In this document: in pieces, positions 1,430 to 29,284 of the stretch
How positions within the stretch are numbered: the first letter of the stretch is position 1
How the letters are laid out: each line of letters starts with the position of its first letter
Origin: Fimbriimonadaceae bacterium
GTDB taxonomy: Bacteria > Armatimonadota > Fimbriimonadia > Fimbriimonadales > Fimbriimonadaceae
Length of the DNA stretch: 34,106 nt
Assembly: GCA_026129685.1 (NCBI GenBank)
Contig: JAHCHO010000016.1
Coordinates: 1 to 34,106, forward strand
Reading direction: 5' to 3'
Position numbers and translations under genes: made by a program
The notes under the pieces: model-generated
What the model was told of the DNA's origin: nothing
Seen by the model: the letters and a program-made list of their open reading frames with translations, nothing else
Database searches by the model: none

Positions 1430-1720
1430 CCCGTCATTCCCGTCACTCCTGTGTGTCGCGCGCGGTTCTCGTTCCCGCCAATCCCGTCATTCCCGTCACT
1501 CGCGTGTGTCGCGCGCGGTTCTTGTTCCCGCCGATCCCGTCATTCCCGTCACACTCGTGTGTCGCGCGCGGCTCCCGTTCCCGCCGATCCCGTTCATTCC
1601 CGTCATTCCCGTCATTCCCGTCACTCGCGTGTGTCGCGCGCGGTTCTCGTTCCCGCCAATCCCGTCATTGCCGTCATTCCCGTCACTCTCGTGTATCAGG
1701 CGCGGCTCTCGTTCGCCGCT
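1430..1720. repeat. Five tandem copies of a 53-bp repeat
   Basis: Units begin at 1430, 1483, 1536, 1589 and 1661. The first three are exactly 53 bp. Each starts CCCGTCATTCCCGTCAC, passes through GTGTGTCGCGCGCGG, and ends near GTTCCCGCCAAT or GTTCCCGCCGAT. Unit 4 is 72 bp because the inner 9-mer CGTCATTCC is repeated twice more with one extra T. Unit 5 carries one extra 9-mer and is degraded at its end. 53 is not a multiple of three, and several plus-strand frames are open through the array simply because the unit has no stops, so it is not a protein repeat. There are no unique spacers, so it is not a CRISPR array. Confidence 0.9.
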
Positions 1721-26256: not shown

Positions 26257-27174
26257 ATGAGCGACCACGGCGCGAGGAAGCGAAGGCCGATCGGCGACCC
26301 TGCCGACTGGGTCCTTTGGTGGTGGTTTCCGATTCGTCGATGGGAGACGGTCGCTCTGTACCGGTCAATTGGTATGGACCGGTACTATTCCTTCATCATC
26401 GGGTTGACGCGCGAGCTGGACTTTCGCCGTTGCGTCCAAGAACTGGCGCCGGGACACACGCCACTGAGCCAGGAGGACCTGACCTGGTTTCGCCAGGAGT
26501 GCCGCTACCACGACGCCGCCAACATGATTCGGATCGGCTTCCTACTGCCACCTTTCGGCGTCCTTGCGGCGCACGGCGCGTGGGGACTGGCGGTGATGTT
26601 GCTTGGCTTCGGTCTGCTCCACACCTACTCGCTGATGTTGGATCGGTACAAGCAACTATTCCTGAACTTGTATGAACAGCAGGCCCGCGATGATGGGGTC
26701 GAACTGCCGGAGAAGATCAGGCGGTCGAGCGGCGTTTCGTTTCAGCCATCCCCGTTTCATCGGGTACCCCTCCGGTGGTACTTCGACCCGAAACCCTGGG
26801 AGTCCGAACGGTTCTTCCTCGCCCTGGGCATCGGTTACTGGCAACGGGTCGTGTACTACATGACTTCCAAGGCCTGGCACCCGGTGGCCGAGCGTCGGGA
26901 GCCCGGAGCCCGGACTTCATTCTTCCGGGAGGGCTCCCGGCAAGAGATGGTGGATTTCGAGTTCGCGACGCGCCTGGGGGAGACGATGCACTGGCTGGGT
27001 CTCCTAACGCTGGCGCCGGTCGCCACCACTCTCTGGCGGTTCGGCAGCTATTGGTCTTCCGGCATTGCGCTGTTCGTCATGCTGACGGACGCGCTCCTCG
27101 TCATGACCTTGCGCATGCATCGGGCCCGCATCTGGAAGCTGGTTCAGCGCGTCGCCGCCCAGGCTCAATCATGA
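26257..27174 (+). CDS. Membrane protein with two CrtO-like halves (putative acyltransferase)
   Basis: A 305-residue protein. The first half has [20 protein letters not shown] (75-94), then a hydrophobic hairpin (about 95-125) ending LMLDRYKQL. The second half repeats the order: [17 protein letters not shown] (233-249), a hydrophobic pair (250-283) ending [11 protein letters not shown]. The pattern 'E...H, hydrophobic with a Pro, then a basic RY/RxH end' resembles CrtO, the glycosyl-4,4'-diaponeurosporenoate acyltransferase of staphyloxanthin synthesis, but as a tandem duplication. This is a weak, pattern-level match and no catalytic proof is visible. The ATG at 26257 was chosen with a TACCAT box 12 nt upstream. 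It overlaps the next gene by ATGA, so they are translationally coupled. Confidence 0.5.
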
Positions 27175-28319
27175 AGCACCCCCGCGTTCTCATCGTCTCC
27201 GCCTCCGTCGGCAACGGCCACATGAGTGCGACGCGCGCGATCCACGAGGAGTGCGAACGACGCGGGGTGCCCGTCAAGTCCATCGATATGATTGAGTTTA
27301 CGCCGCGAGCCTTCCAAGGATGGTATCGCGGAGGCTACGAGAGGGCGGTCAAGGACACGCCGAAACTGTGGGGATTCCTCTACGCCCTTTCGGACGTGCG
27401 GGGACCGATCTTCAGCCTTCAGGACTGGCTCGACCGGACGTTCTGCTTCCGGCTGGATCCGATCGTGCGGGAGTTCGACCCGGACGTGGTCGTCTGCACC
27501 CATTCCCTTCCCCAGCCGCGTCTGCTCCGGCTCAAGCGGCAAGGATTGCGGTTCCGGATGACGATCGTGGTGACGGACATGCACCCCCACAAGATGTGGC
27601 TGCGCGGGGAGCCGGACGACTTCGCGGTGCCGTCCGACTGGTCGATCGCTCGCCTCAAGGAACGCATGCCGGAACTGACCGACGATCGCGTGGCGGCTAC
27701 CGGTATTCCCATCCACCGAGGGTTCGTGGCGATCGGGGAGTTCGCGGACCAGGACCCGCCTCTTGTGGTGCTCACCAGCGGCGGCATCGGCGGCGGGCCG
27801 ATCGTCGAGGCGATGGAGGCCCTGTCGTCGGTGCCGGAACGTTGCCGCATCGTGGCGGTGGCGGGGCGGAACGAACGGGCGAGACAAGACCTGGAGCGCC
27901 ATGCCGCCGCCCTGCCCGCCGGTCGCAACCCGGTCGAGGTGCGGGGCCACGTTCCGCTGGACCAGATGGCAGAACTCGTCCGGGGCTGCACGCTAATGGT
28001 GGCGAAGTCGGGCGGCCTCACTTCTTCCGAAGCCTTGGCGGCGGGGGCGCCCTTCGTGGTGTACCTGCCGCTGCTGATTCCCGGTCAGGAGGAGCAGAAC
28101 GCGGAGTTCCTCAAGGAGTCGGGCGCCGGGGTCCATGCCGCCAACCGCGACGAACTGGTGGCGACGGTGATGCGGCTCCTGCGTTCTCCGGAAGAGCGGC
28201 GAGCGATGAGGAGCAAGGCCCTTTTGGTGGCGAAGCCGAACGCGGCCGCTCGGATCGTGGACGGCCTTCTCGAACATCATACGGGGAACCCGCCGACGAA
28301 TCCCATCAGCAACCAGTAA
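27171..28319 (+). CDS. MGDG synthase/UgtP-like GT28 glycosyltransferase
   Basis: A 382-residue enzyme of the monogalactosyl- or glucosyl-diacylglycerol synthase group (MurG fold). The N-terminus has SASVGNGHMSAT (10-21), followed by YERAVKDTPKLWGFLYALSD, typical of the MGDG_synth domain. TDMHPHKMW (135-143) matches the family's T-D-x-x-x-H-x-x-W region. The nucleotide-sugar site is KSGGLTSSEAL (279-289) followed by PGQEEQN (304-310). It should transfer a sugar from a nucleotide donor to a membrane lipid at the inner face of the membrane; whether the acceptor is diacylglycerol or another lipid is not visible. It starts inside the stop codon of the CrtO-like gene. Confidence 0.85.
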   Translation: MKHPRVLIVSASVGNGHMSATRAIHEECERRGVPVKSIDMIEFTPRAFQGWYRGGYERAVKDTPKLWGFLYALSDVRGPIFSLQDWLDRTFCFRLDPIVREFDPDVVVCTHSLPQPRLLRLKRQGLRFRMTIVVTDMHPHKMWLRGEPDDFAVPSDWSIARLKERMPELTDDRVAATGIPIHRGFVAIGEFADQDPPLVVLTSGGIGGGPIVEAMEALSSVPERCRIVAVAGRNERARQDLERHAAALPAGRNPVEVRGHVPLDQMAELVRGCTLMVAKSGGLTSSEALAAGAPFVVYLPLLIPGQEEQNAEFLKESGAGVHAANRDELVATVMRLLRSPEERRAMRSKALLVAKPNAAARIVDGLLEHHTGNPPTNPISNQ

Positions 28320-28322
28320 TAT
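28317..28322 (+). promoter_or_regulatory. -10 box for the ArsR-B12 regulator (TAATAT)
   Basis: TAATAT overlaps the TAA stop of the glycosyltransferase gene and ends 8 nt before the TTG at 28331. The region 28317-28333 is AT-rich compared with its surroundings, as expected of a promoter. AGAGGA in the gap is only a base or two from the TTG, too close to act as a ribosome binding site. Confidence 0.5.
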
Positions 28323-28330
28323 AAGAGGAA

Positions 28331-29284
28331 TTGAAATCACAGGTATTCGCCGAGATCGCCGACGCCTCCCGCCGCAACATCCTTGCCGAACTCCGGCGGG
28401 GACCGCGCACGGTGTCGGAATTGGTCAGCGCGACCGGACTCAAGCAACCCAACGTCTCGAACCATCTTGCCCGTCTGAGGGATTGCGGTTTGGTCGAGGC
28501 GACCAAGCGGGGTCGGCTGGTGTTCTACGCCCTCAACGACCCGCGCGTCGAGGCGGCCCTAGGGATTGCCGCGAACGGGCTCTGCACCCGCGCTCATGAC
28601 CCGATCTCCCTGGCAACCTACGTCGAGCGGTACGCCGAAGCGGCCGTTCGGGGCGAAGAGGCGGCGTGCGTTGCGGTGGTGGACGAGCTGCTAGCACTGC
28701 ACGTCGACCTGGTGACGCTCTATTCCGACGTGCTTGGGCCGGCGATGGCAAGGGTCGGCGACGGGTACGTTCTCGGTGAGATCGACGAGGGTCAGGAGCA
28801 TCTCGCCAGCGCGATCACGGAGCGCGCGATGGCGCGGATCGTCCACTTTCGCACCAAGGGCGTCATGAACGAGCGGCTGGCCCTACTCGGCTGCTCGGCG
28901 GGGAACCTCCACACGCTCGGACTAAGGATGCTGAGCGATTACCTTGCCTCGGAGGGTTGGGAGGTGCGCTTTCTCGGGGCGAACGTACCCCACCAGGCGT
29001 TCCTCGAGGCCGAACTGCGTTACGAGCCGGAAATCGTCCTGGTCAGTTGCGGAGCGAGGGGAACCGAGGAGGCTTGCGAGTCGCTCGTACGAGCTTTGTC
29101 GGACCGGAAACCGCTTCGGCCCGATCTGCGGGTCGGCGTCGGGGGACGGTGCGCACTGGAAGCGGCCCCACGGTTCCTGGAAGCGGGCGCCGATTTCACC
29201 GCCCGCGACTTGCGCGAGTTCGCGGCGGTCTCCCTGCCGAGTCTGGCGGAGCGGCGTCGTCCGCCCGGCGCAAATCGTCTATAA
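28331..29284 (+). CDS. ArsR-type winged-helix regulator fused to a cobalamin-binding module
   Basis: A 317-residue fusion. Residues 5-68 are an ArsR-type winged helix (DASRRNILAELRRGPRTVSE, then GLKQPNVSNHLARLR as recognition helix) without the metal-binding Cys box. Residues about 95-175 match the B12-binding cap (helical) and 180-300 the B12-binding Rossmann domain. The lower-ligand motif DxHxxG reads NLHTLG, with H194 as the likely cobalt ligand. The cap has Y146-x9-E156-H157, aligning with Trp-x9-Glu-His of the light sensors CarH/LitR. At the next position, where CarH has the histidine that binds cobalt after light exposure, this protein has V147. It probably represses transcription in response to a cobalamin form. 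The start is TTG, with a TAATAT box 8 nt upstream; no nearby ATG fits. Confidence 0.8.
   Translation: MKSQVFAEIADASRRNILAELRRGPRTVSELVSATGLKQPNVSNHLARLRDCGLVEATKRGRLVFYALNDPRVEAALGIAANGLCTRAHDPISLATYVERYAEAAVRGEEAACVAVVDELLALHVDLVTLYSDVLGPAMARVGDGYVLGEIDEGQEHLASAITERAMARIVHFRTKGVMNERLALLGCSAGNLHTLGLRMLSDYLASEGWEVRFLGANVPHQAFLEAELRYEPEIVLVSCGARGTEEACESLVRALSDRKPLRPDLRVGVGGRCALEAAPRFLEAGADFTARDLREFAAVSLPSLAERRRPPGANRL

Follow-up and report, generated by a model that had tools for sequence, protein, structure and literature searches.

A candidate ArsR-type, cobalamin-dependent and possibly light-released repressor of its own gene and of an ECF sigma factor gene in Fimbriimonadaceae

The DNA analysed here, a stretch of 34,106 nucleotides from a Fimbriimonadaceae bacterium (hereafter the window), contains a gene for a regulator in which an ArsR-type winged helix is joined to a cobalamin-binding module resembling that of the light sensors CarH and LitR. 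The locus raises the question whether such a protein could serve as a B12-based light switch although its DNA-binding part and some photosensor residues differ from those of CarH, and which genes it would control. To our knowledge, all B12-photoreceptor transcription factors known by experiment have a MerR head. No paper on an ArsR-B12 fusion regulator was found in the open-licence literature, and SignatureFinder lists HTH fusions in general terms only. The coordinates of the features discussed are summarized in Table 1.

Table 1. Location of the regulator gene, its domains, the predicted operators and associated genes.
Feature	Position	Strand	Remarks
ArsR-HTH/cobalamin-binding regulator gene	28331..29284	+	317 aa, single open frame, TTG start
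ArsR-type winged helix, residues 3-76	28337..28558	+	Pfam, NCBIfam, ortholog alignment
Four-helix B12 cap, residues 98-169	28622..28837	+	Y146 at 28766-28768, V147, E156-H157 at 28796-28801
B12-binding Rossmann domain, residues 184-289	28880..29197	+	lower-ligand His H194 at 28910-28912; GxxxP = residues 216-220
Predicted operator TCCCATCAGCAACCAGTAATATAA	28301..28324	+	14.7 bits, best in 34-kb window; second 7.4
MGDG/diglucosyl-diacylglycerol synthase-like glycosyltransferase gene	27174..28319	+	ends 11 nt before regulator
CrtO-family (glycosyl-4,4'-diaponeurosporenoate acyltransferase-like) gene	26356..27174	+	PF18927, E 1.5e-17
Own-genome ECF sigma ortholog	G000:C14:191228-191785		65% identical; unlinked to regulator gene
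Own-genome ECF operator site (predicted)	G000:C14:191145-191168		15.3 bits, between TTGACA and TAATAT

The start of the gene is supported by the ortholog of the same genus, which has ATG at the place of the TTG and a protein beginning with MKSRVFDELGDASRR. The first-pass annotation, made from the letters of the DNA, had described an ArsR winged helix, a B12-binding cap and a B12-binding Rossmann domain in one protein, and all three were confirmed above curated cut-offs. HTH_5 (ArsR, PF01022) matched residues 13-56 at 3.5e-15 (56 bits, gathering cut-off 22), and the ArsR/SmtB model HTH_metalloreg NF033788 of NCBIfam scored 82 bits with a cut-off of 55. The Pfam matches of the B12-binding_2 cap at residues 98-169 (1.8e-14) and of the B12-binding domain at residues 184-289 (6.9e-18) also exceeded their gathering scores. 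An AlphaFold model of the protein, made with 45 orthologs, has a mean pLDDT of 93. The cap and pocket residues are as first read, namely Y146-x9-E156-H157, V147 at the place of CarH H132, and H194 in NLHTLG; of the motif D/ExHx2G...SxT/V...GG, the His, Gly, Ser and GG are present and the D/E is replaced by Asn. The domain matches support the assignment of the protein as a cobalamin-module regulator with a predicted non-MerR DNA-binding domain.

A phylum-wide search showed that the protein is not isolated. Among 291 Armatimonadota genomes, 53 full-length orthologs (matches at E <= 1e-30, window included) were found, spread over numerous genera of the family to which the window belongs and over three other families; the 52 members from outside the window are 31-59% identical over nearly the whole protein. 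No full-length match outside the Armatimonadota was obtained in a scan of genome contigs, whose reach is close relatives only, no phage match to the protein was found, and no place on plasmids covered 80% of it. In the ortholog alignment, position 146 (Trp in CarH) is aromatic in 50 of the 53 proteins (Tyr 37, Trp 11, Phe 2), and His was never found (0/53) at position 147, the equivalent of the bis-His residue H132 of CarH. E156 and H157 are kept in 52/53, the lower-ligand H194 in 51/53, G216 and P220 of GxxxP in 53/53, G271 in 52/53 and G272 in 53/53, and position 192, the Asp/Glu of the classic D/ExHx2G, is Asn in 39 and Ser in 11 of the 53. The recognition helix residues Q39, P40, N41, S43, H45 and L46 are invariant. 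When residues 1-90 were inspected for the metal site of ArsR/SmtB proteins, H45 was the sole conserved Cys/His position and no cluster was seen. The residues first described as altered are old family traits, since the same states recur across the 53-member alignment. Full-length MerR-type CarH-like genes are present in about 27 Armatimonadota genomes, one of them (L259, G096:C2:197380-198252) with RxWERRY. Mutual exclusion of the two types was considered and rejected, as a hand count gave MerR-type genes in 5/53 genomes with the ArsR type and 22/238 without it.

By its sequence features the protein is not a CarH. The top HTH match is ArsR-type HTH_5 and no MerR model is listed in Pfam or NCBIfam, in agreement with the earlier statement that the DNA-binding part differs from the MerR-type HTH of CarH/LitR. 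Wx9EH, described as a motif without exception in CarH (PMC8156234), is Yx9EH in the window, and the W is found in 11/53 orthologs. The NCBIfam CarH equivalog NF052513 gave 31 bits against a cut-off of 400, which is strict, since no gene in the 291 Armatimonadota genomes reaches it.

The B12 half was compared with known structures. In a profile search of the PDB, CtMerR (8jbs, 118 bits), SasPcob (110) and AbDPcob (90) ranked above MttC (82), other corrinoid proteins, methionine synthase and CarH (54). Foldseek placed 8jbs first (TM by target 0.83), and VIA placed the photocobilins and CtMerR first (Z 24.5-25.8; methionine synthase 22.5). CtMerR and the photocobilins SasPcob and AbDPcob are AdoCbl photoreceptors by experiment (PMC11796333); the fold and the nearest relatives of the B12 half are thus those of proven AdoCbl photoreceptors. 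Of the light-responsive signature GxxW/EH/GxxH/GxxxP of SignatureFinder, the window protein has EH, GxxH and GxxxP, and GxxY in place of GxxW. On these scores the B12 domain belongs with the light-responsive group, and we infer that the window protein would bind cobalamin and respond to light. The Tyr and Val changes had been taken as signs of a different signal, a reading that does not hold: Trp, Tyr and Phe interchange within the family, and the place of CarH H132 is taken by Arg, Gln or Tyr in CtMerR and the photocobilins, CtMerR using a reoriented Glu in its light state (PMC11796333), so that the loss of this histidine is no argument against light sensing. For the same two reasons the proposed choice between B12 level, redox and light by a route different from that of CarH is narrowed: light leads, probably through a light state that lacks bis-His ligation, and B12 level and redox are kept as rivals.

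A binding motif was learned from the upstream regions of 42 non-redundant orthologs, with the window and its genus-mate left out. Gene calls at the loci were homology-supported, because coding-score calls mis-split GC-rich loci. The motif is a 24-bp palindrome with the consensus ATATATCAnTGnnCAnTGATATAT and a log-likelihood of 118.6 (39.7-42.9 in shuffles). The new element here is that this palindromic operator, learned from other genomes, has its best match in the window directly before the regulator gene. The site ends six bases before the TTG. It shares bases with the 3' end of the glycosyltransferase gene lying upstream and with a -10-like TAATAT (28317-28322). In 4 Mb of Markov sequence matched to the composition of the window, no site of 14.7 bits occurred. 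Binding had been proposed at 28280-28340, where the predicted conserved operator lies, and in the region before 26257, where the motif scan found no site (best -2.6 bits; up to 26356 also without a site). Directly 5' of the operator, at 28295-28300, stands GACGAA, which has the same register in L048, L054 and L061 (four genomes, that of the window included); RACGAA was seen within short range in 6/45 upstream regions, with 0.42 expected by shuffling. It may be a -35-like element read by an alternative sigma factor, and a feedback loop would then exist. Weak motif matches also drew attention to repeats of TCCCGTCACTCxCGTGTGTCGCGC, at least five near-copies, at window positions 1438-1701.

The gene recurrently found at such sites encodes an ECF sigma factor (Sigma70_r2, Sigma70_r4), in a pattern scan of 30 genomes that gave more operator sites than the reversed control. 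At the ECF locus of the window's own genome the next-best site in 12 kb has only 2.0 bits, and in the genus-mate a site of 21.9 bits stands immediately in front of this gene. In a wider genome set, with sites counted at >=12 bits, the ECF promoter carried a site in 29 of the 30 genomes that have the regulator and in 4/23 relatives without it. Those four genomes are 72-89% complete, and the near-complete relatives without the regulator gave 0/16. Over all genomes the Fisher p is 1.3e-9, a value inflated by the relatedness of the genomes. The ECF gene itself was present in 38/40 tested family genomes with the regulator and in 23/41 without. As the ECF-promoter site tracks the presence of the regulator, the comparative evidence indicates that protein and palindrome belong together, and the regulator would be expected to bind the predicted operator. 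The ECF gene usually shares the operator with a divergent 121-aa gene (e.g. L139:4169-4534, about ten genomes), whose conserved product has no Pfam match.

Other genes follow operator-like sites less widely. In one genome (G031) an 18.4-bit site precedes crtI (TIGR02734, 525 bits, cut-off 238), which is followed in the operon by genes for an aldehyde dehydrogenase, a second desaturase-like protein and an acyltransferase. Fasciclin genes lie 3' of such sites in three genomes (G031, G129 and G088), and a flavin amine oxidase, an Old Yellow Enzyme relative and a DUF2867 SDR each follow a single site. These genes are read here as light or photo-oxidative-stress genes. These sites, from single genomes for crtI and the flavoenzymes, weigh less than the ECF test because they were picked after the motif search. 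No operator was detected within the 19 kb examined around the sole clear crtI of the window's own genome (C16:154888; best 6.3 bits), and an 18.4-bit site before a cytochrome gene of that genome (C11:215680) is GC-rich and was left without interpretation.

The commonest neighbour of the regulator gene among the 53 loci is not a pigment or photolyase gene but a divergent acyl-CoA dehydrogenase gene (about 33/53, e.g. L047:6762-7922), a neighbour that the window and several families lack. The dehydrogenase gene is followed by one for a 335-aa protein, for which no Pfam or NCBIfam match was obtained. The CrtO-type and glycosyltransferase neighbours in the window are compatible with a possible role in carotenoid or glycolipid tailoring; the predicted operator is not upstream of these genes.

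From what was computed (the domain composition, the fold, the conservation of the pocket, the operator and its co-occurrence with the regulator), the best explanation, in which we place moderate confidence, is that the protein is a one-component repressor which depends on AdoCbl, is most likely released by light, and acts on its own gene and on the ECF sigma factor gene. The ArsR winged helix would sit on the inverted repeat of about 24 bp that overlaps its own promoter and the unlinked ECF sigma promoter, and in relatives on the similar sites of photoprotection-type genes. The C-terminal module would hold adenosylcobalamin with H194 as lower ligand, with Y146 and E156-H157 forming the cap over the Ado group. 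In darkness the AdoCbl form, bound to the palindrome across the promoter, would repress; light would cleave the Co-C bond, the cap would move, and the oligomer or the DNA affinity would change. Repression of the ECF gene and the regulator gene would then end, and the ECF sigma factor produced would direct a photo-oxidative-stress regulon. Repression rather than activation is suggested by the position of the operator alone, and it is presumed that the protein binds AdoCbl, that light is its signal and that the oligomer changes. AdoCbl can be made in the window's own genome, since a cobalamin adenosyltransferase is encoded there, together with other B12-domain proteins. The changes of W to Y and of D/E to N in the predicted pocket count against this explanation, as do the acyl-CoA dehydrogenase as commonest neighbour and the lack of an operator near the crtI gene of the window's own genome. 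The recurrence in 53 genomes, with a matching site before the own gene and the ECF sigma gene, makes it probable that this is a second kind of light switch based on B12.

The protein was also compared with the nearest known systems. The closest match of its B12 half, CtMerR of Chloracidobacterium thermophilum (8jbs/8jbt, 31% identity), shares the EH, the lower His, GxxxP and the lack of a bis-His residue, but has a MerR-type DNA-binding domain, Trp, and Asp in DxH, where the ArsR family has Tyr in most members and Asn or Ser. CarH/LitR of Thermus, Myxococcus and Streptomyces share the one-component order of HTH, four-helix cap and B12 Rossmann domain and the EH; they differ in a MerR HTH and, for CarH, a direct-repeat operator and H132, as opposed to an ArsR HTH and a palindrome. 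Judged by its anatomy, the protein would work like CarH/LitR. In Streptomyces, illumination of LitR with bound B12 turns on litS, the gene of an ECF sigma factor, and LitS drives crtE (PMC12705666); by analogy, the wiring here would be that of LitR-LitS with another DNA-binding head. The photocobilins have the cobalamin fold (VIA Z about 25) and the signature residues, but carry a bilin domain and no HTH. ArsR/SmtB metalloregulators such as CmtR and NmtR have the winged helix and an inverted-repeat operator at the promoter, whereas the sensor here would be an added B12 module and not a metal site on the HTH. Corrinoid methyltransferase proteins and MetH are without the Wx9EH-type cap, unlike the ArsR-B12 family with its EH and fused HTH, which scores closer to the photoreceptors.

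Three rival explanations were weighed. A sensor of the AdoCbl level, which would repress at high AdoCbl and come off at low AdoCbl, with light incidental, is unlikely. The AdoCbl-type pocket and the B12-related metabolism of the genome agree with it, and the divergent dehydrogenase would fit acyl-CoA metabolism; however, none of the genes seen downstream of the examined sites encodes a B12-dependent enzyme or transporter, and the operator is tied to the gene of the ECF sigma factor and, among relatives, also to those of CrtI and fasciclin, a set resembling light or photo-oxidative regulons. ECF, fasciclin and amine-oxidase genes also belong to singlet-oxygen regulons, which would suit a redox or singlet-oxygen sensor of AppA/AerR type or ChrR-ECF-like, in which cobalamin or a B12-free fold reports the oxidation state. 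AppA SCHIC and AerR are indeed structural relatives in VIA, but they stand well below CtMerR and the photocobilins in sequence and fold scores, and the family has kept the EH and the aromatic cap characteristic of AdoCbl photoreceptors, which leaves this reading improbable. In one ortholog (L083, genome G083) the EH is changed to YR and the lower His to Cys, yet the ECF operator is kept in the genome; B12-free action is therefore possible in at least one member, and L083 is possibly a B12-independent form, like CarA beside CarH. That the whole family consists of B12-independent, fatty-acid- or acyl-CoA-responsive regulators of the acyl-CoA dehydrogenase, with the B12 fold a relic or used for another ligand, is very improbable in spite of L083 and of the dehydrogenase being the most conserved neighbour, as a relic would not keep the EH, lower His, GxxxP and GG in nearly all members and the dehydrogenase is no neighbour in the window and several families.

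If the light-released repressor is the correct reading, the Armatimonadota would gain a predicted light-signalling circuit. It stands at about even chances that the family is a second lineage of B12 photoreceptor-repressors, in which the MerR head is replaced by an ArsR head, the operator is a palindrome and the light state has a Tyr cap and no bis-His ligation, and which governs an ECF sigma photoprotection circuit, and an acyl-CoA dehydrogenase, across Fimbriimonas-related Armatimonadota. Such a family would test the need for bis-His ligation and for the Trp cap. With its ArsR head, defined operator and conserved ECF target, it would show the B12 light switch to be a portable module, and it would provide a green-light switch that works through a simple palindrome.
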